In this document: one piece after another, positions 1,276-29,112 of the stretch
Layout: every line of letters begins with the position of its first letter
Numbering within the stretch: position 1 is the first letter of the stretch
Made by a program: the position numbers and the translations under genes
Assembly: GCA_018064885.1 (NCBI GenBank)
Contig: JAGHUI010000075.1
Coordinates: forward strand, 1 to 32,065
Direction of reading: 5' to 3'
Source: Candidatus Minthosoma equi
GTDB lineage: Bacteria; Bacteroidota; Bacteroidia; Bacteroidales; Bacteroidaceae
DNA: 32,065 nt
The notes under the pieces: generated by a model
The model's database searches: none
The model's input: the letters and a program-made list of their open reading frames with translations, nothing else
Told to the model about the DNA's origin: nothing

Positions 1276-4200
1276 TTACTTAACAAGCATCTTAACTGTT
1301 TGACCGTTTGACATCTTGACGATGTTGATGCCCTTCTGAGGAGCTGCGAGGCGAGCGCCTGAGATTGAGTAGTAAGCAACTGGAGTGAGAACATCAACTG
1401 GAGTTTCTGCTTCTACCTTCTCGATTGCTGTGCCCTGACCGTAGTAGTAGAGGTGCCATGGACCTACGACTGTGTAGTCGTTTGAACCGATTGTCTCGTC
1501 GAGACGGAGACCGATTGTTGCTTTGCCATCCTCACCTACTGTGAACTCAAGTTCGTTGAGGAAGAGACCTGCCTCGTAGCACTTAACCGATGCTCCTGTA
1601 CCGTCTGGAACGATGATTCCGTTGATCTCCTTTGTGCCGATGCCTTCTGGAAGTGTTACGCCCTGTGAGCCCTCAGAGAGGTTCATGATGGAAGTAACGT
1701 AGTTGTCAACACCTGTGTTAGCGAAGAACTTCATGAGGTGAGTGTCCTTGCCTGCTGTGATGTTGGCTGCTTCTTCTTCGTAAGAGCCTGCACGGTAGTA
1801 AGTCTGAACTGTAACCTTGTAGTTACCAGCTGGGAGACCTTCAAGGTCCTGTGATAGGTTGAATGTACCCTTGTTGAATGAGCAAGAATAGCTCTTGTAA
1901 CCGTTGAGGGCGCCTTCTACGTTCCAGCCGTCAATGCGCTTCTCGTCCTTGTTGCCCTTCTCAGGATCGAAGTTGTTATTAACGATGAGGTCTGTGAAAT
2001 CCTCTTCCGTAACCTTCTCTTCACCATAGTAGTAGAGGTGCCATGGACCAACGACTGTGTAGTCGTTTGTTCCGATTGTCTCGTCGAGACGGAGACCGAT
2101 TGTTGCCTTGCCATCCTCGAGCACATAGAATGTGAGCTTGTTGAGGAAAAGACCTGCCTCGAAGCACTTAACAGATGCGCCTGTACCGTCTGGAACGATA
2201 ATTCCGTTGATTTCCTTTGTGCTGATGCCTTCTGGGAGAGTGACACCCTTAGAACCCTCTGAGAGGTTCATAATAGAAGTCATATACTGATCCTGTGAGT
2301 TGTTTGCATAGAACAGCATAAGGTGAGTGTCCTTGTCAGCTGTGATATTGGCTGCTTCTTCTTCGTAAGAGCCTGCACGGTAGTATGTCTGAACTGTAAC
2401 AACATACTTACCCTTTGGAAGACCTGCGAGATCCTGTGAGAGGTTGAATGTGCCCTTGTTGAATGAGCAAGAGAAACTCTTGTAGCCATTGAGGGCGCCT
2501 TCTACGTTCCAGCCGTCAATGCGCTTCTCATCCTTGTTGCCCTTCTCTGGATCAAAGTTATTATTAACGATGAGGTCTGTAAAATCCTGTTCGTCATCAT
2601 CCTGAGATGGCTTAGACATCTTGACTGCTGTTGTCATTGCCTTAGTATCAGATACGGCAGTTTCTGCGTCTGCATTGTTGAGAGATTTGTTCTCGTATGC
2701 AGCAGAAAGGGTGCTGTAGAGATCTTCTGCCTTAGCAACAACGGAGGCATCAGCAGATGCGTTGCCATCGATAGCTGCACGGAGATTTTCAAGAGCAAGC
2801 TTGAGCTCTGCATAGAGTGTTACGCTCTGGTTTGCTGCATCGAGAGCTTTCTTGAGCTCAACGAGAGCTGCGTAACCTTCGTCGCCAGAGATGCCTTCAG
2901 CTGAAGAGATAGCTCTGTTGAGCAAATCTGCCTCTGTTGTGCCATAGTAGCTTTCTGCAAGACCTGCAGCCTTAACCTTAAGGTCTTCGAGAAGTGCTGC
3001 GCATGCTTCTGCATTCTTTGAACGGAATGTGAGTGACACACCGCCTGCCCAGAGGATGCCCTGCTCGCCAGTACGGAGACGATTAGCAATACCAACCTTC
3101 ATTGTTCCGTCTGTAACAAGACCGTAAACCTTTACAGGATATTCGCCAGCTGCGAACTTCTCGGATGCTACAGTTGCTGCATCGATAATCTGGTCTTCTG
3201 CTGTGACAGGAACCAAAACGTCGAAGTCGTTGATGTAAGCGTATGTCTGACGGATGTCTGCGTCGTTGTCTGGTCGGTAAGCAGCCTGGAGGTTCATCTC
3301 GTAGATACCATTCTGAAGACCGCTCAACTGCTGGTAAACATCAGCAACACGGCCCCATGCCTGGAACACTCGGAAGCTTTCCTCACCTTCTGGCCATGAG
3401 ATACCAGCTGCTGCAGTCCAGCCGCCAGCTTCTGTGAAGTTAGGGTTGACGAGAAGCTTTGTGCAGTCGTCGCCATCACTCATAGCATTTGCCATAGCAT
3501 CCTTGAGAATCTTGTCAAAGTATTCTGTCTCGGCTGCTATCTGTACGGCATCGAGATTACCGTTGATGAGAATATACTGCGCACCGCCGTTGCCATTGTA
3601 ATCACCAGCTGTGAATGTGTCGTCATCAAGGTAGTCGCTGAGCAGGTTCACTTCGTCGCTTTCTGCTGTTGTAGAACCGAGCCAATCGGATGCTTCCTCG
3701 TACTTAGCATAGAATTTGTCATAAGCTGCTACGCTTTCAGACATTGCCTTTGCTGCCTTGTTGAATGATTCGAGAGCTGCGGCGATTTCCTCGGCAGTAG
3801 CTGCAGAAGAAAGAGCTGTGCATGCTGCCTTGTAGTCTTCGTAAACAGAAGCCTGGCAGAATGTCTCGCCTTCCTTGTAATCTGGCTGTGAGTTAATAGC
3901 ATTTTCTACAAGATAAGCATAAGCTGCTGCATCGTTGCCTACATAATAAAGGTTCACGTTGTCAAGACCAACCCAGTTAGGACCTTTCTTTGCAACCTCA
4001 AGACCAATCTCAAGCGTGCCGTTTGTAACAACTGCGTATGCATCAAAGCTCTGCTCAATGTCAATCTGAGTTGCTGTCACTGGCGCCTGGCTGCTGCCTG
4101 CAAAGAGGTAAGTATCTGCACCTGTGTTTGTGAAAGCAAGAGCATTGAGATGATAAACGCCTGTTGCAAGATCTGTTGCTGTTGCATAAATCTTACCTGG

Positions 4201-5169
4201 TGTGAATGCATCGCCGTTCCAGTTCTCATAGTGATTGCCTGTTGTTGCGAAATCCTTGGCGTTGTTGCCATTGCTTGCCTGCTTGTTGCTTGCACTTGTT
4301 GTTGATGACCAGCCAGGGCATGTACCATCTGTGAAGTCTGTAGCAATGCCGAGGATAGAGAGCACCTCTACAGGATTATCTACGCTGGCAATTGAGTACT
4401 TGGCATTCTTAATAGCAAGATCGAGAGACTTCTTCTGAGCAGCAAGAGCGTCTGCTGTGCTTGATGTGTTGGCATAAGCAGCCTTTGCATCAGCCAACGC
4501 TACAGCATCTACGCCAGCAACTGTCTCTGCCTCGTCAATAGAAGCCTTGAGAGCTACTGCTGCCTCATATTGAATCATCGCCTGTGTGTAAGTTGCATAG
4601 TTGGCAGGAGAGACGAAGTACCAAAGAACCTGACACTTTGAGAAGTCATAGCCATCGCTGTTATCCAATTCGCAGAAGTAGAGACGTGTGTCGTTCTTCT
4701 CTGGAATAACGCCAAGACACGCTCCTGGATAGTTGGCATCTGTATATTCTCCTGTATTGGCATTAGAAAGACCAATCTTGAAAGTGCCATCGCCCTGATC
4801 AAGGAATGTGTACTGGTTGCATGGCTTGCCTTCCTTTGTGTTATCCACATAGATTGCAGAGACATTGTCAACAAACATGTAGCCAATCTGGTCTGCCATG
4901 CCACCCTGAAGGACATAATTAGTGATGTAGTACGAACCGTCTGCCGTACCTGCCTCAATATACACTTTGTGTCCTGCTGTTGTGCTGACACTGGCGCGTG
5001 TACCCCAATCATTTGCACCAATAAGGAAACCACCAGCTTCCTTGTTGAATAGATAGCATTCCTCGCCTACAGCAAGAGGTGTGCTGGCAGGGTCTGCCGG
5101 CTTAACCCACTGAGCGAACGAAGCTACACTGACAAACAGTGATGCAACAAAAAGAATGAGTTTGTTCAT
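1276..5169 (-). CDS. Large secreted multidomain protein with four jelly-roll-like modules
   Basis: This 1297-residue protein begins with a clear signal peptide (MNKLILFVASLFVSVASFAQ). Residues about 30-190 form an N-terminal domain I do not recognise. After that, helical Ala/Glu-rich spacers alternate with modules that resemble carbohydrate-binding or discoidin-like beta sandwiches, at about 279-412, 572-717, 862-1049 and 1057-1244. The last two are near-identical copies (see repeat entries). The C-terminus (AYYSISGARLAAP...KMLVK) resembles the short tail shared by many secreted Prevotella proteins, possibly a type IX-like sorting signal; this was not tested. No catalytic domain is visible, so a surface adhesin or glycan-binding role is only inference. 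It has its own canonical promoter (5228-5260) and is monocistronic, ending at the shared terminator. Confidence 0.75.
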   Translation of the reverse strand: MNKLILFVASLFVSVASFAQWVKPADPASTPLAVGEECYLFNKEAGGFLIGANDWGTRASVSTTAGHKVYIEAGTADGSYYITNYVLQGGMADQIGYMFVDNVSAIYVDNTKEGKPCNQYTFLDQGDGTFKIGLSNANTGEYTDANYPGACLGVIPEKNDTRLYFCELDNSDGYDFSKCQVLWYFVSPANYATYTQAMIQYEAAVALKASIDEAETVAGVDAVALADAKAAYANTSSTADALAAQKKSLDLAIKNAKYSIASVDNPVEVLSILGIATDFTDGTCPGWSSTTSASNKQASNGNNAKDFATTGNHYENWNGDAFTPGKIYATATDLATGVYHLNALAFTNTGADTYLFAGSSQAPVTATQIDIEQSFDAYAVVTNGTLEIGLEVAKKGPNWVGLDNVNLYYVGNDAAAYAYLVENAINSQPDYKEGETFCQASVYEDYKAACTALSSAATAEEIAAALESFNKAAKAMSESVAAYDKFYAKYEEASDWLGSTTAESDEVNLLSDYLDDDTFTAGDYNGNGGAQYILINGNLDAVQIAAETEYFDKILKDAMANAMSDGDDCTKLLVNPNFTEAGGWTAAAGISWPEGEESFRVFQAWGRVADVYQQLSGLQNGIYEMNLQAAYRPDNDADIRQTYAYINDFDVLVPVTAEDQIIDAATVASEKFAAGEYPVKVYGLVTDGTMKVGIANRLRTGEQGILWAGGVSLTFRSKNAEACAALLEDLKVKAAGLAESYYGTTEADLLNRAISSAEGISGDEGYAALVELKKALDAANQSVTLYAELKLALENLRAAIDGNASADASVVAKAEDLYSTLSAAYENKSLNNADAETAVSDTKAMTTAVKMSKPSQDDDEQDFTDLIVNNNFDPEKGNKDEKRIDGWNVEGALNGYKSFSCSFNKGTFNLSQDLAGLPKGKYVVTVQTYYRAGSYEEEAANITADKDTHLMLFYANNSQDQYMTSIMNLSEGSKGVTLPEGISTKEINGIIVPDGTGASVKCFEAGLFLNKLTFYVLEDGKATIGLRLDETIGTNDYTVVGPWHLYYYGEEKVTEEDFTDLIVNNNFDPEKGNKDEKRIDGWNVEGALNGYKSYSCSFNKGTFNLSQDLEGLPAGNYKVTVQTYYRAGSYEEEAANITAGKDTHLMKFFANTGVDNYVTSIMNLSEGSQGVTLPEGIGTKEINGIIVPDGTGASVKCYEAGLFLNELEFTVGEDGKATIGLRLDETIGSNDYTVVGPWHLYYYGQGTAIEKVEAETPVDVLTPVAYYSISGARLAAPQKGINIVKMSNGQTVKMLVK
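1438..2001 (-). repeat. Tandem module copy 2 (residues 1057-1244)
   Basis: This second 188-codon copy of the same module starts with the same DFTDLIVNNNFDPEKG. Differences from copy 1 cluster in two places: the stretch after KDTHLM, and the strand after EAGLFLN. That clustering is what one expects if exposed loops vary while the core is kept. Confidence 0.9.
2023..2586 (-). repeat. Tandem module copy 1 (residues 862-1049 of the 1297-aa protein)
   Basis: This is the first of two adjacent 188-codon copies, running from DFTDLIVNNN to WHLYYYG. Aligned by eye with copy 2 it differs at about 21 of 188 residues, and long stretches of the DNA are identical. A 7-residue linker (EEKVTEE) separates the copies. 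Confidence 0.9.
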
Positions 5170-5342: not shown

Positions 5343-7283
5343 ATGATATTCAACTATGATGTTATAGTGGTTGGAGCTGGTCACGCTGGATGCGAGGCTG
5401 CTGCCGCCGCTGCTAATCTTGGTGCAAAAACATGTCTCATAACAATGGACATGAACAAGATTGCACAGATGTCGTGCAACCCTGCCATTGGCGGTATTGC
5501 TAAAGGGCAGATTGTGCGAGAGATTGATGCTTTGGGAGGACAAACAGGTGTGGTTACAGACCGTTGTAGTCTGCAATTCAGAATGTTAAACCTTTCCAAA
5601 GGTCCTGGTGTGTGGAGTCCGAGAGCTCAATGCGACAGAGCAAAGTTCATCTGGACTTGGCGAGAGATACTAGAAAACACTCCAAATCTCAATATCTGGC
5701 AAGACCAAGCAAGAGAGTTAATAGTTGAGAATCAAGAAGTTCGAGGTATCATAACCTATTATGGCGCTGAATTCAGAGCAAAGTGTGTCGTGATTACTGC
5801 TGGCACATTCCTCAATGGTCTTATGCACATAGGCAGGGTGAAGATTCCTGGAGGCAGATGCTCTGAGCCTGCTTCTTTAGAACTTACAGAATCCATAACA
5901 AAGCATGGAGTTCGTGCTGGCAGGATGAAGACAGGAACCCCTGTTCGCATTGACCGCCGAAGCGTGGATTTCTCTCTTATGGAGATGCAAGATGGTGATC
6001 ATGATTTTCATCAGTTCTCATATCTTCCTACAGAACAGCAGAAGGTGACAGAACGCAACAATATACCTTGCTGGATATGCTACACTAACAAGGCTGTTCA
6101 CGATGTGTTAAGAAGCGGCTTTGCCGACTCGCCTCTTTTCAATGGGCAGATCCAAAGCATCGGTCCAAGGTATTGTCCGAGCATTGAAACAAAGCTTCAT
6201 ACTTTCCCTGAAAAGGATGAGCACATGCTGTTTCTTGAGCCTGAGGGGGAGGCGACAAACGAGATGTACCTAAATGGTTTTTCATCATCTCTTCCTTTGG
6301 ACATTCAGCTTAATGCTCTCAGACAGATTCCTGCCTTCCGCAATCTTCAGGTGTATCGTCCGGGATACGCAATAGAGTATGATTATTTTGATCCTACTCA
6401 GCTAACACATTCGCTCGAATCTAAGGTAGTCAAAAATTTGTTCCTTGCAGGACAGGTGAACGGAACAACAGGATATGAGGAGGCTGCCGGGCAAGGTATC
6501 ATAGCTGGTATAAACGCTGCCATCAATGCAAGTGTATGCAACTGCAACAAAGACGGTGAGAAAAACACTTCGCCTCTGAACGAAGGAAAGCCTTTCACGT
6601 TAAAACGAAACGAGGCTTACATAGGAGTGCTTATTGATGACCTCGTGACAAAGGGCGTTGATGAGCCTTATCGCATGTTCACGTCAAGAGCTGAATACCG
6701 TATTCTTTTACGTCAGGATGATGCCGACATGCGTCTTACCGAACGCAGTTACCAACTGGGACTTGCGACAGAGAAGCGTCATAATCTCATGCTGTCAAAG
6801 AAAAAGATGATTGAGGATATCCTTGGTTTTGCAGCTAATTTTTCTGTGAAAGCAGCACTCATAAATCCAGCTCTTGAATCGCTTGGCACTACTCCACTCT
6901 CTCAAGGCTGTAAACTGGAAGATTTGTTAGGACGACCACAAATCAACATTCATAACATTCTTCCACATATTGATCCTTTCAGAAAACACATTGACAAGGT
7001 TATTGGTGATGATTCGCGAAGGGAAGAAATACTTGAAGCTGCAGAGGTGCAAATTAAGTACAAAGGCTACATAGTTCGTGAACAGCAAATGGCAGAGAAG
7101 ATGATCCGCCTTGAAAGCATCCGCATTGCTGGCAAGTTCGACTACCCTAACCTCACCCAAATTTCCATTGAAGCACGACAGAAACTGCAAGCCATACAAC
7201 CAGACACTCTTGCACAAGCATCACGAATACCAGGTGTAAGTCCTTCAGACGTAAACGTGCTTTTGGTGCTTATGGGACGATGA
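5343..7283 (+). CDS. mnmG: tRNA uridine 5-carboxymethylaminomethyl modification enzyme MnmG
   Basis: MnmG (GidA) binds FAD and, with MnmE, installs the carboxymethylaminomethyl group on the wobble uridine of certain tRNAs in the cytoplasm. The 646 residues are slightly above the usual 620-630. The N-terminal FAD-binding GAGHAGCEAA lies at residues 11-20, followed by the family signature around SCNPAIGG. Further family motifs are GTFLNGLMHIG, ETKLHTFPEK, GQVNGTTGYEEAAGQG and YRMFTSRAEYRILLRQDDAD, and the C-terminal helical domain is complete. The start is the first ATG after the -7 element. It heads the mnmG-apt-uvrC-dtd-deoC run. The mnmG gene is often near the replication origin, which fits the parS-like sites just downstream. 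Confidence 0.97.
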   Translation: MIFNYDVIVVGAGHAGCEAAAAAANLGAKTCLITMDMNKIAQMSCNPAIGGIAKGQIVREIDALGGQTGVVTDRCSLQFRMLNLSKGPGVWSPRAQCDRAKFIWTWREILENTPNLNIWQDQARELIVENQEVRGIITYYGAEFRAKCVVITAGTFLNGLMHIGRVKIPGGRCSEPASLELTESITKHGVRAGRMKTGTPVRIDRRSVDFSLMEMQDGDHDFHQFSYLPTEQQKVTERNNIPCWICYTNKAVHDVLRSGFADSPLFNGQIQSIGPRYCPSIETKLHTFPEKDEHMLFLEPEGEATNEMYLNGFSSSLPLDIQLNALRQIPAFRNLQVYRPGYAIEYDYFDPTQLTHSLESKVVKNLFLAGQVNGTTGYEEAAGQGIIAGINAAINASVCNCNKDGEKNTSPLNEGKPFTLKRNEAYIGVLIDDLVTKGVDEPYRMFTSRAEYRILLRQDDADMRLTERSYQLGLATEKRHNLMLSKKKMIEDILGFAANFSVKAALINPALESLGTTPLSQGCKLEDLLGRPQINIHNILPHIDPFRKHIDKVIGDDSRREEILEAAEVQIKYKGYIVREQQMAEKMIRLESIRIAGKFDYPNLTQISIEARQKLQAIQPDTLAQASRIPGVSPSDVNVLLVLMGR

Positions 7284-7291
7284 TAATATGA

Positions 7292-7321
7292 AAAGCGTTT
7301 CACGTCTTAAAGGAACGCTTT
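7292..7321 (+). promoter_or_regulatory. Hairpin after mnmG containing a split parS-like sequence
   Basis: An inverted repeat (7292-7301 with 7312-7321, ten pairs including one G-U, 10-nt loop) sits 8 nt after the mnmG stop. It lacks a T-tract, so it is a poor terminator. It contains GTTTCACGT (7297-7305) and GGAAC (7312-7316). These are the two parts of a parS site, separated by six extra bases. Confidence 0.4.
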
Positions 7322-7336
7322 GTTCCACGTGAAACA
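7321..7336 (+). promoter_or_regulatory. Candidate parS site (ParB binding), left copy
   Basis: TGTTCCACGTGAAACA differs at one base from the widely conserved palindromic parS consensus TGTTTCACGTGAAACA. It lies in the 127-bp gap between mnmG and apt. ParB-CTP clamps load at such sites and organise origin-proximal DNA. The match is seen directly; function is inferred. Confidence 0.8.
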
Positions 7337-7410
7337 ATCCATTTGTATCAACAATCAAATCAGCAAGTTATAAGAATACGTTAAACAAGTAAATCAACAA
7401 TACAAAAAAA

Positions 7411-7941
7411 ATGAACAACCAATATCTCATAGACAACGTACGTTCTATAATGGACTTCCCGCGCAAAGGGATAAACTTCCGCGATGTAACCACGCTTTTC
7501 AAGGACTCAAAAGCACTTGAAATTATGGAAGAAGAACTTTACGGACTTTACAAGGACAAGGGCATCACCAAGGTTGTTGGCCTCGAAACTCGCGGATACA
7601 TCATGGGGTCCATCCTTGCTCGCCGTTTAGGCGCTGGCTTCGTGATGGCAAGAAAACCAGGAAAGCTTCCTTACAAGACTTTGCAGGAAAGCTATTCGAA
7701 GGAATACGGCACAGACACTATCGAGATTCACATTGACGCAATAGAGCCAGACGATGTCGTCCTCATCCACGACGATCTTCTCGCCACAGGAGGAACCATC
7801 AAGGCGGCATGGAACCTTGTCAAGAAATTCAACCCAAAGAAGTGTTATATGAACTTCATTATAGAAATACGCGACGAAGGGCTTACAGGAAGAGAGTTCA
7901 TCGGCGATGGCATCGAAATAACAACACTGATGAAATTCTAA
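7411..7941 (+). CDS. apt: Adenine phosphoribosyltransferase
   Basis: Apt salvages adenine by joining it to PRPP to make AMP in the cytoplasm. The protein is 176 residues, typical for the family. The type I PRPP-binding motif VVLIHDDLLATGG spans residues 116-128. Family motifs are also seen in KGINFRDVTTLF, GLETRGYIMG and ARKPGKLPYKT. The gene stands between two candidate parS sites, and its flanking gaps (127 and 151 bp) are wider than those later in the run. Its own transcription start was not located. Confidence 0.96.
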   Translation: MNNQYLIDNVRSIMDFPRKGINFRDVTTLFKDSKALEIMEEELYGLYKDKGITKVVGLETRGYIMGSILARRLGAGFVMARKPGKLPYKTLQESYSKEYGTDTIEIHIDAIEPDDVVLIHDDLLATGGTIKAAWNLVKKFNPKKCYMNFIIEIRDEGLTGREFIGDGIEITTLMKF

Positions 7942-8033
7942 GGTTTCATTGAAAGCTCCACGGAATTGCAAGTGAAGCAACCGTAAAACAATAATCATGT
8001 TTGTTGTTGAAATACGGTAAGTTAGCAACAATT

Positions 8034-8049
8034 TGTTTCACGTGGAACA
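8034..8049 (-). promoter_or_regulatory. Candidate parS site (ParB binding), right copy, inverted
   Basis: TGTTTCACGTGGAACA is the exact reverse complement of the left copy at 7321-7336. It is therefore the same 16-mer in opposite orientation, in the 151-bp apt-uvrC gap, about 700 bp away. Two exact copies in consecutive non-coding gaps are very unlikely by chance. Confidence 0.8.
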
Positions 8050-8092: not shown

Positions 8093-9907
8093 ATGACTAA
8101 AGACGAGGAAAGATTGCAAAGGCTGAAGCTTGTTGTAGATTGCTTGGAAGAAAGGCCGGGCGTTTACCAATACTTCGACAAAAACGATAAGATTCTTTAC
8201 GTTGGAAAAGCAAAGAGTCTTAAGCGTCGTGTGACCTCGTATTTCAACAACAGCCCCAAAAACAGGAAGACGCTTATCTTAGTAAGCAAGATTGAAAAGA
8301 TCATTCCAACATATGTAGATTCCGATGAAGACGCCTTGTTGCTTGAAAACAGCCTTATCAAACAACATCAGCCATTCTACAACATTTTGCTCAAGGACGG
8401 AAAGACCTACCCTTCTGTTTGCGTGACAAACGAGTATCTTCCTCGTGTGTTCAAGACGAGAGATATTAATAAAAAGACAGGAACATTCTACGGTCCTTTC
8501 AGTCATGCTGGAACACTAAATGCGATGCTTGATCTCATTAATAAACTATACAAGGTGAGATTATGTAATAAGCCTATTGTTCCTGAAAAAATCGCAGAAG
8601 GCAAATACGAGTTGTGTGTTTATAGCCATATTAATAAATGTGACGCTCCATGCATTGGCAAACAATCACGCGAGGATTACATGAAGCAGATTAGCGAAAT
8701 AAAAGAGATTCTCAGCGGAAATACAAGGATACTTTGTCAGCAGCTGTATGAAAACATGCAAAAATTGGCAGAAGAAGAGCGTTATCTTGAGGCAGCGGCG
8801 GTTAAAGAAAAATATCTTCTAGCAAAGGATTTTGATAATAAAAGCAGGGTTATTACAAGCACTAATCAGAACATTGATGTATTCAGCATTGAAGATGACG
8901 AAAGCAAAGCATTCGTCAATTTCATGCATGTGGTTAATGGATGTATAAACCAGACCTACACAGTAGAATACAAGAAACAGCTTGACGAATCGAAGGAAGA
9001 AGTGCTTCAGCTTGCCATTGTTGAAATGCGAGAAAGATACGAAAGCAAATCAAAGGAAATCGTCGTTCCATTTGAGATGGACATAAAGATGAATGACGCA
9101 GAATTTATCATACCAAAAGCTGGAGATAAGCGCAAGCTTCTTCTTTTGTCAGAAACAAATGTAAGACAATATCGTTTAGACGCATTAAAACAAGCAGAAA
9201 AGCTTAATCCAGAACAAAGAAATACCAATATTCTAAAAGAACTTCAGCGAAAACTGAAACTTGAAAAGATACCTATGAGAATTGAGTGCTTTGACAACTC
9301 AAATACCATGGGACAAGATGCAGTTGCTGGCTGCGTTGTCTTTATCGGAGGTAAGAAATCAAAGAATGACTATAAGCGTTTCAATATAAAAAGCGTAACT
9401 GGACCTGATGATTATGCTTCTATGAGTGAAGTTGTATATAGGAAATACAGTCGTGCCATAGAGGAAGGTACTCCTTTGCCAGATCTTATCATCACGGATG
9501 GCGGCAAAGGACAAATGGAGGTAGTAAGAAAGGTTATTGAAGACGAACTGAAACTCAACATACCAATTGCAGGTCTGGCGAAGGACAATCATCACCGCAC
9601 GAACCAGCTCTTATTCGGCTTTCCTCAGCAAATAGTTGGAATTGAAATGGAAAGTCCACTATTCAAACTTCTGACACAGATCCAGGATGAAGTACACCGA
9701 TTTGCCATCACATTCCATAGGGAGAAACGCGCTAAGCACAATAAGGAATCCGAATTAGATAAGATTAAAGGTATTGGTGAAGCAACTAAGATACTGTTAC
9801 TCAAAGAGTTCAAGAGTCTCAAAAGAATAAAGGAAACTCCTTTAGAGGAATTAAGCAAGGTCATTGGGCCCGCCAAAGCAAAGATCCTTATTGATGCATT
9901 TAATTAA
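8093..9907 (+). CDS. uvrC: Excinuclease ABC subunit C
   Basis: UvrC makes the two incisions flanking a lesion in UvrABC nucleotide excision repair. The 604 residues match the family. The N-terminal GIY-YIG nuclease carries PGVYQYFDKNDKILYVGKAK (about residues 22-41). A UVR/UvrB-interaction region includes EEERYLEAAAVKEKY. The C-terminal RNase H-like nuclease includes IECFDNSNTMGQDAVAG and LIITDGGKGQ. The last 60 residues form paired helix-hairpin-helix motifs (IKGIGEATK and VIGPAKAK). The start is an ATG closely preceded by a weak purine stretch (GAGGA). A candidate parS lies 43 bp upstream, and dtd follows 41 bp after the stop. Confidence 0.97.
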   Translation: MTKDEERLQRLKLVVDCLEERPGVYQYFDKNDKILYVGKAKSLKRRVTSYFNNSPKNRKTLILVSKIEKIIPTYVDSDEDALLLENSLIKQHQPFYNILLKDGKTYPSVCVTNEYLPRVFKTRDINKKTGTFYGPFSHAGTLNAMLDLINKLYKVRLCNKPIVPEKIAEGKYELCVYSHINKCDAPCIGKQSREDYMKQISEIKEILSGNTRILCQQLYENMQKLAEEERYLEAAAVKEKYLLAKDFDNKSRVITSTNQNIDVFSIEDDESKAFVNFMHVVNGCINQTYTVEYKKQLDESKEEVLQLAIVEMRERYESKSKEIVVPFEMDIKMNDAEFIIPKAGDKRKLLLLSETNVRQYRLDALKQAEKLNPEQRNTNILKELQRKLKLEKIPMRIECFDNSNTMGQDAVAGCVVFIGGKKSKNDYKRFNIKSVTGPDDYASMSEVVYRKYSRAIEEGTPLPDLIITDGGKGQMEVVRKVIEDELKLNIPIAGLAKDNHHRTNQLLFGFPQQIVGIEMESPLFKLLTQIQDEVHRFAITFHREKRAKHNKESELDKIKGIGEATKILLLKEFKSLKRIKETPLEELSKVIGPAKAKILIDAFN

Positions 9908-27773: not shown

Positions 27774-29072
27774 ATGAAATTGCTATTGTTAGGTAGTGGC
27801 GGCCGTGAGCACGCCTTGGCTTGGAAGATTGCCCAGAGCCAGAAGATCGAGAAACTCTTTATCGCACCAGGAAATGCAGGAACAGCAGGAGTAGGGGAGA
27901 ACGTCCCTTTGAAAGCTGACGATTTCCAAGGCATCAAATCATTCGTTCTGGAAAACAAGATCGACATGGTCGTTGTCGGTCCTGAAGACCCACTGGTAAA
28001 GGGTGTGTACGACTTCTTCAAGAACGATCCAGAGATTGCCTCCATTCCTGTTATCGGTCCAAGCAAGGCAGGAGCCGTTCTTGAAGGCTCAAAAGACTTT
28101 GCCAAGTCATTCATGCAGCGCCACAACATCCCAACAGCCGCATATCGCTCTTTCAACGGCACAAACATTGAAGAAGGCATCGCATTCCTTGAAACACTCC
28201 AAGCACCATACGTTCTCAAGGCAGACGGACTCTGTGCAGGCAAGGGCGTGCTCATCATCGACAACCTTGAAGACGCCAAGCGCGAGTTCCGCGGCATGCT
28301 CGACGGCATGTTCGGCGAGGCCAGCGCAACAGTAGTTATCGAAGAATTCCTCAGCGGCATCGAATGTTCTGTATTCGTGCTCACAGATGGCAAGAACTAC
28401 AAGATACTTCCAGAGGCAAAAGACTACAAGCGAATCGGCGAAGGCGACACAGGACTCAACACAGGCGGCATGGGCTCCGTAAGCCCAGTGCCATTTGCCG
28501 ATGCAGAATGGATGAAAAAGGTTGAGGAGCGCATCGTGAAGCCAACAATCGAAGGACTCCAGAAGGAAGGCATCGAATACAAAGGCTTCATCTTCCTTGG
28601 TCTCATCAAGGTAGATCGAGACTACGCATACGCCGAGACAGGCGACCCTGTCGTTATAGAATATAATGTACGCATGGGCGACCCAGAGACAGAAACCGTA
28701 ATGCTCCGCATCAAGAGCGACCTCGTAGAACTCCTCGAAGGCGTGGCACAGGGCAACCTCGACACACGCACACTTGAGTTCGACCCACGCTCAGCCGTCT
28801 GCGTCATGATGGTCAGCGGCGGCTATCCACAGGCATACAAGAAAGGTTTTGAAATCACAGGCATAGAAAACGTAGAAGGCTCAGTAGTGTTCCATGCAGG
28901 CACAAAGCTTCAGGAAGGCAAGGTCGTAACCGATGGCGGTCGTGTGATTGCCGTAAGCTCATACGGCGCAACTCAGAACGAAGCACTTGTCAAGTCATTC
29001 ACCGAAGCAGGCAAGATTCAGTTCGAAGGCAAATACTTCCGTCGTGACATTGGTCAAGACCTCTTGAAATAA
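27774..29072 (+). CDS. purD: Phosphoribosylamine--glycine ligase
   Basis: PurD joins glycine to phosphoribosylamine with ATP in the second step of purine synthesis. The 432 residues match the family. The N-terminal [37 protein letters not shown], the ATP-grasp block [14 protein letters not shown], the signature RMGDPETE near residue 302 and the C-terminal VFHAGT are all present. It is apparently monocistronic, between its own promoter and a strong terminator. Confidence 0.97.
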
Positions 29073-29112
29073 ACGAAAACCAAAACGAAAACTAAAACGG
29101 AAAAGACAAGAA

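Follow-up and report, generated by a model that had tools for sequence, protein, structure and literature searches.

In established ParABS systems, ParB loads at parS, slides along the DNA as a CTP clamp and is moved by ParA, as outlined in excerpts of PMC7053999, PMC8367383 and PMC7022226. Location of the par operon in the ori domain is presented in the last of these excerpts as a common feature of such systems and not as their definition. ParB is set apart from Noc by two specificity positions, R173 and G201 in ParB and Q and R in Noc (excerpt of PMC7383237). For mouse-gut Bacteroidota, excerpted text of PMC10197239 states that the origin does not always accompany dnaA, and that no known condensin homologs are present in Bacteroides caecimuris and Muribaculum intestinale.

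Here we address two 16-mers of Candidatus Minthosoma equi, found in a stretch of 32,065 nucleotides (contig JAGHUI010000075.1; hereafter the window, meaning the whole stretch analysed) from a draft genome of 3,510,409 bases in 114 contigs, 97.56% complete. In our assessment they are very probably chromosomal parS sites, likely bound by the ParB of this genome; what is kept would be the mnmG-uvrC neighbourhood near the origin, and the bracketing of apt would be happenstance. The sites and their neighbours are listed in Table 1. Plus-strand genes around the sites follow in the order mnmG, apt, uvrC, dtd, and deoC, and dapB and lepB are recognized inside the window by Pfam. The initial annotation described one 16-mer and its exact reverse complement in the intergenic gaps on either side of apt; sequence, coordinates and intergenic position were all confirmed.

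Table 1. Features of the mnmG-uvrC neighbourhood (window positions; identities are means over the columns of a 27-row alignment)
Feature	Position	Strand	Remarks
mnmG (gidA)	5343..7283	+	Pfam GIDA, 519 bits; parS neighbour in most other Bacteroidota loci read
Candidate parS site, left, mnmG-apt gap	7321..7336	+	TGTTCCACGTGAAACA; 99% identity vs 54% in the remaining gap
apt (adenine phosphoribosyltransferase), between the two sites	7411..7941	+	Pfam Pribosyltran domain; name from the initial annotation and gene order
Candidate parS site, right, apt-uvrC gap	8034..8049	-	TGTTCCACGTGAAACA on the minus strand; 98% identity vs 50% in the remaining gap
uvrC, 3' of the right site	8093..9907	+	Pfam

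Two further sequence features of the window can be mentioned. Positions 1276-5169 of the minus strand encode a 1297-aa protein with a start that resembles a signal peptide by eye and with a weak DUF5013 match, in which a 195-aa segment is present in two copies, starting at residues 865 and 1060 (164/190 identical). A 12-bp tandem repeat of 2.8 copies (29071-29103) lies at the 3' end of the ORF 27774-29072.

The 16-mer differs by a single base from the palindrome TGTTTCACGTGAAACA, the consensus used in the excerpted part of PMC10197239, in agreement with the closeness to parS proposed initially. Its reported uniqueness also held, as a window search allowing ≤ 3 mismatches returned four rows, representing the two places on both strands, and no third match. 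In shuffled controls the mean was 0.31 rows and the maximum 2, and none of the 100 shuffles reached four. Throughout the 3.51-Mb draft, TGTTYCACGTGRAACA occurs exactly at only these two places, 713 bp apart, vs ~ 0.004 places expected when the base composition of the window is taken for the genome. When the wider pattern TGTTNCACGTGNAACA was reversed as a control, no exact match was obtained in the same genome. With ≤ 2 mismatches, the genome holds four places and the reversed control seven, so the weaker matches carry no meaning; those with two mismatches on contig C92 were considered as extra sites and rejected, because all places together are fewer than in the control.

Conservation was followed in a 27-row tree group (the window plus the 26 named relatives closest to it, with alignment gaps counted as differences), in a same-genus set of 36 genomes, and in 80 named loci out of 206 obtained in a search with Apt. 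The last two sets partly coincide and cannot be counted as independent. In the tree group, the 16 positions of each site are conserved far above their surroundings (Table 1). An apt match is present in 31 genomes of the same-genus set, all 31 with an exact site beside it, on both sides in 27 and on the uvrC side only in four (G004, G008, G015, G028); the five genomes without an exact site are the same five without an apt match. When sites with ≤ 2 mismatches were accepted up to 450 bp before and 750 bp after apt, the named loci showed them on both sides in 58 cases, on the right only in seven (including L139, cut by its contig end), and on neither side in 15. The left site is absent in a clade of five.

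Such conservation bears on the proposal that the 16-mers arose by chance, or that they are an unrelated palindrome of another DNA-binding protein. The core CACGTG is indeed a simple palindrome, and binding of ParB to the 16-mers is only predicted; against this stand the near-zero expected number of exact sites compared with the closely spaced pair found, the conservation of all 16 positions, and the absence of sites together with ParAB in one clade, described below. We regard this proposal as scarcely credible.

In the 58 loci with sites on both sides, the two are 577 to 1197 bp apart, and their spacing is therefore not fixed. The inverted orientation noted initially is literally true for the window; however, because parS is near-palindromic and the asymmetric bases are so arranged in only 18 of these 58 relatives, it does not represent a conserved feature. 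In two loci, parS-like palindromes TGTTACAnnTGTAACA were found inside arrays of 23-bp repeats (L078:7866-7966, 4.3 copies; L205:3670-3723, 2.3 copies). An mnmG-apt-uvrC locus of the Bacteroidales type, with parS, is also found in one record titled Roseburia sp. (L111), which clusters among Prevotellaceae MAGs and is probably a mislabelled or mixed MAG.

Transcription signals were surveyed between positions 7200 and 8150. Two sigma-70-like promoter sites were detected vs 1.7 expected, in a scan made for this promoter type rather than for others such as those of Bacteroidales. Upstream of the left site, a half-site GTTTCACGT can pair as RNA with the right half of this site (window 7297-7335; − 16.5 kcal/mol, z − 3.85), as would be anticipated if the sites belonged to an RNA structure or transcription terminator following mnmG. 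Nevertheless, no terminator-like sites were found in the surveyed segment, the 27-row alignment shows conservation of the 16-mer but not of the upstream arm, and an RNA structure at this place leaves the right site unexplained. A role of this kind is thus most improbable.

The frequent bracketing of apt among relatives could alternatively mean that the sites are operators for specific control of apt, perhaps also of uvrC, by ParB or some other factor. In Pseudomonas aeruginosa, some genes adjacent to parS are repressed by ParB bound there, for example next to parS3 and parS4 (excerpt of PMC5521831), whereas, according to the excerpt of PMC7022226, genes next to parS are unaffected in B. subtilis and three genes are affected in V. 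cholerae. Changes in gene order are informative in this respect. In two loci from which apt is gone (L079, L084), a single 1-mismatch site persists between mnmG and uvrC (G062, G063; L197, L198), and none is found beside the relocated apt. In a clade of four genomes with moved uvrC (L107, L109, L110, L119), two genomes keep two sites directly before uvrC (L195, L196), in L195 with a third site between dtd and deoC; no sites are located beside apt, and none was found in the other two genomes. Sites are also adjacent to mnmG in three genomes of other families which have no apt match (G046, G049, G052), and the clade of five mentioned above lacks the left site. Because rearrangements of gene order do not carry the sites along with apt, control of this gene is unlikely as their purpose, and we assign the operator proposal a low probability. 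The link with apt looks incidental, and the conservation pattern argues that this gene is a bystander of putative parS sites anchored at mnmG.

Anchoring at mnmG extends beyond the closest relatives. Among 24 genomes from other Bacteroidales families (G037-G060), searched within 1 mismatch, 19 have a site < 100 bp from the matched mnmG end, some of them with further places elsewhere (G038, G044, G049, G058, G060). In G053 the site is away from mnmG, and in G037, G045, G050, and G054 no site within 1 mismatch was detected in the genome. A draw of 118 genomes across the phylum revealed the exact site in 87, the genome of the window included, and mnmG lies within ~ 150 bp of the exact site in 26 of the 29 phylum loci read besides that of the window. 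In some families mnmG itself is flanked by two sites (G039, G041, G048, G049, G056), and site pairs ~ 1.9 kb apart recur in the phylum draw. Elements of the parS kind are well known; less expected is that parS should be anchored at mnmG and away from parAB, and as judged from the compared sequences, its position in the phylum is more conserved than expected. Titles and opening lines of abstracts of the papers listed disclosed no report of parS beside mnmG in Bacteroidota, although the survey of Livny et al. 2007, reportedly the main one for parS, may contain one.

The initial annotation proposed a ParB loading region, and the genome was found to encode a candidate protein. A TIGR00180 search gave one ParB match, on contig C81, with a score of 198.5 bits, above the cut-off. 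The protein is comprised of ParB_N, HTH_ParB, and ParB_C domains and has a GERRW motif; parA is located directly upstream and a DUF5683 gene directly downstream. Its best PDB matches are Noc chains. Identification as Noc/NBS was nevertheless rejected, since Q and R are absent at positions 173 and 201 and alignment to Noc combined with motif reading places R and G there, the same residues as in 29/29 ParB loci of relatives that were read. The neighbours of parAB on C81 include mutL, OmpA, DUF5683, a transglycosylase, and relA/spoT type genes, with no match to dapB or lepB in the 20 kb read. Proximity of the dapB-lepB cluster to parAB, put forward initially in support of an origin-proximal location, consequently does not apply: parAB resides on another contig, without these genes in the stretch read, and in Prevotella communis parB, at 2.402 Mb, is 1.12 Mb distant from parS.

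Loci without sites offered a comparison with the presence of ParB. Nine of the 15 loci lacking a site beside apt (L094, L095, L097, L099, L100, L101, L112, L120, L124) retain the order mnmG-apt-uvrC, in L112 with uvrC 1.5 kb away, and contain no place similar to parS at ≤ 3 mismatches. In the tree built from Apt and MnmG, these nine genomes form one group (SH-aLRT 92). In a search covering 69 of the 80 named-locus genomes, ParB above the cut-off was found in none of the nine (G064 has a 21.5-bit match) and in 56 of the 58 genomes with a site at the locus, or 54 of the 58 on a stricter reading. Similarly, no ParA ortholog was detected in the nine (best match 147 bits), vs scores of at least 439 bits in 9/9 ParB-bearing genomes tested. 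The nine genomes being one tree group, the joint absence represents a single evolutionary event and not repeated ones. From these comparisons, the clade of nine MAGs, which includes Candidatus Colivivens, has apparently lost the whole ParABS system.

There are exceptions to this association. ParB was not found in the site-bearing G100 and G077, and in G101 and G109 the sole match above the cut-off comes from a frame of 547-550 aa that does not resemble chromosomal ParB; none of these four has a detectable ParA ortholog, which is likely a consequence of missing contigs, or else true loss. In G095, ParB is split across contig ends. Overall, the site is kept only where ParB is kept, as observed on one event; G071 and G072, conversely, possess ParB although their whole assemblies gave no site within 1 mismatch. 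They are members of the clade with uvrC moved away from apt, and are the two genomes searched for ParB that combine a moved uvrC with no site found. Of the nine ParB-less genomes, six do show a place within 1 mismatch outside their own locus: G076 carries one exact 16-mer on a 9-kb contig, of which 6 kb were read without a match to window genes, and 1-mismatch places, single or double, occur in G067, G068, G069, and G073. In the ParB-less MAG G066, contig C83 (L192, 6042 bases) holds mnmG-apt-uvrC-dtd once more, here accompanied by two parS-like sites, and is probably contamination.

With the window's own genome being a draft in many contigs, its placement relative to the origin rests on relatives. 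An origin-proximal location, as suggested initially, is supported by a GC-skew switch near parS in three of four single-contig relatives (P. communis, G186, and G181; the fourth is G224). The complete P. communis chromosome (3,551,722 bases) has only two places within 1 mismatch, at 3,522.4 and 3,523.0 kb, beside apt. Its skew was sampled in stretches of 6.7-20 kb. Values were positive for 10/10 stretches between 0 and 1.55 Mb and negative for 14/15 between 1.71 and 3.55 Mb, where only the stretch with parAB deviated; the skew switches at the record start, ~ 29 kb from parS. In G186 the minus-to-plus switch is between 2.52 and 2.557 Mb, with parS at 2.567 Mb and 1/20 stretches out of sign; in G181 it is between 2.11 Mb and the record start, with parS at 2.138 Mb. 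Few sites clustered near the origin are thereby indicated, the nearness being given by skew in relatives. The GC skew of the window itself, in 2-kb steps, was rejected as an origin locator, since its plus-to-minus change near 16 kb is ascribed to gene strand.

Neither parAB nor dnaA consistently accompanies this position. In P. communis, the one genome in which this was assessed, parAB is ~ 1.15 Mb, or a third of the chromosome, away from the skew switch, and the par operon is not in the ori domain. Mapping against dnaA, suggested at the outset as a guide to the origin, proved misleading. The gene was located in nine genomes; its distance from parS is 6.6 kb in G181, ~ 0.79 Mb in P. communis, 0.75 Mb in G186, 0.43 Mb in G136, and 1.4 Mb in G224. 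In G235 dnaA is near the record ends, as is parS, and in G051, G057, and G146 the two are on different contigs. By skew and by these distances, dnaA was rejected as an origin mark for P. communis and G186.

The presence of a parS-type ParB, the strong conservation of the sites, and their joint absence with ParAB in one clade all speak for the ParB loading region. We infer that ParB, coded beside ParA on C81, most likely binds the two 16-mers, where it would close into a CTP-dependent clamp and slide across mnmG-apt-uvrC and neighbouring genes. Together with ParA, it would then move the newly copied origin region apart. The conserved unit would be the neighbourhood of mnmG and uvrC close to the replication origin, in which one to three sites are usually present, and the two sites flanking apt a chance layout in this genus and Prevotella relatives. 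By analogy, a side effect on the expression of apt or uvrC is possible.

In a broader sense, the balance leans slightly towards parS held at mnmG, independently of parAB and dnaA, marking the origin in Bacteroidota, and towards one Bacteroidales clade, with Candidatus Colivivens, having lost ParA, ParB, and parS together and segregating its origin otherwise. Bacteroidota are a leading gut phylum, in which, to our knowledge, chromosome segregation has been little studied. If true, the mnmG-parS mark would be a practical origin marker for draft genomes in which dnaA misleads, and comparison with the clade devoid of ParABS would be a natural way to learn the role of ParABS in these bacteria.

Compared with described systems, the 16-mers resemble chromosomal parS of the ParABS type known from B. 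subtilis, C. crescentus, and P. aeruginosa in sequence, in low copy number, and in nearness to the origin, as inferred by skew in relatives. The C81 ParB shares with these systems the CTP-type motif and the parS-specific residues. It belongs to the same protein superfamily as Noc of the Noc/NBS system, but differs from it at the two switch positions, with R and G in place of Q and R. In contrast to the common ParABS layout, the anchor is mnmG-uvrC instead of parAB or dnaA. The closest parallel within the phylum is with the mouse-gut species Bacteroides caecimuris and Muribaculum intestinale, where, according to the excerpt of PMC10197239, which names no genes beside parS, parS helps place the origin.
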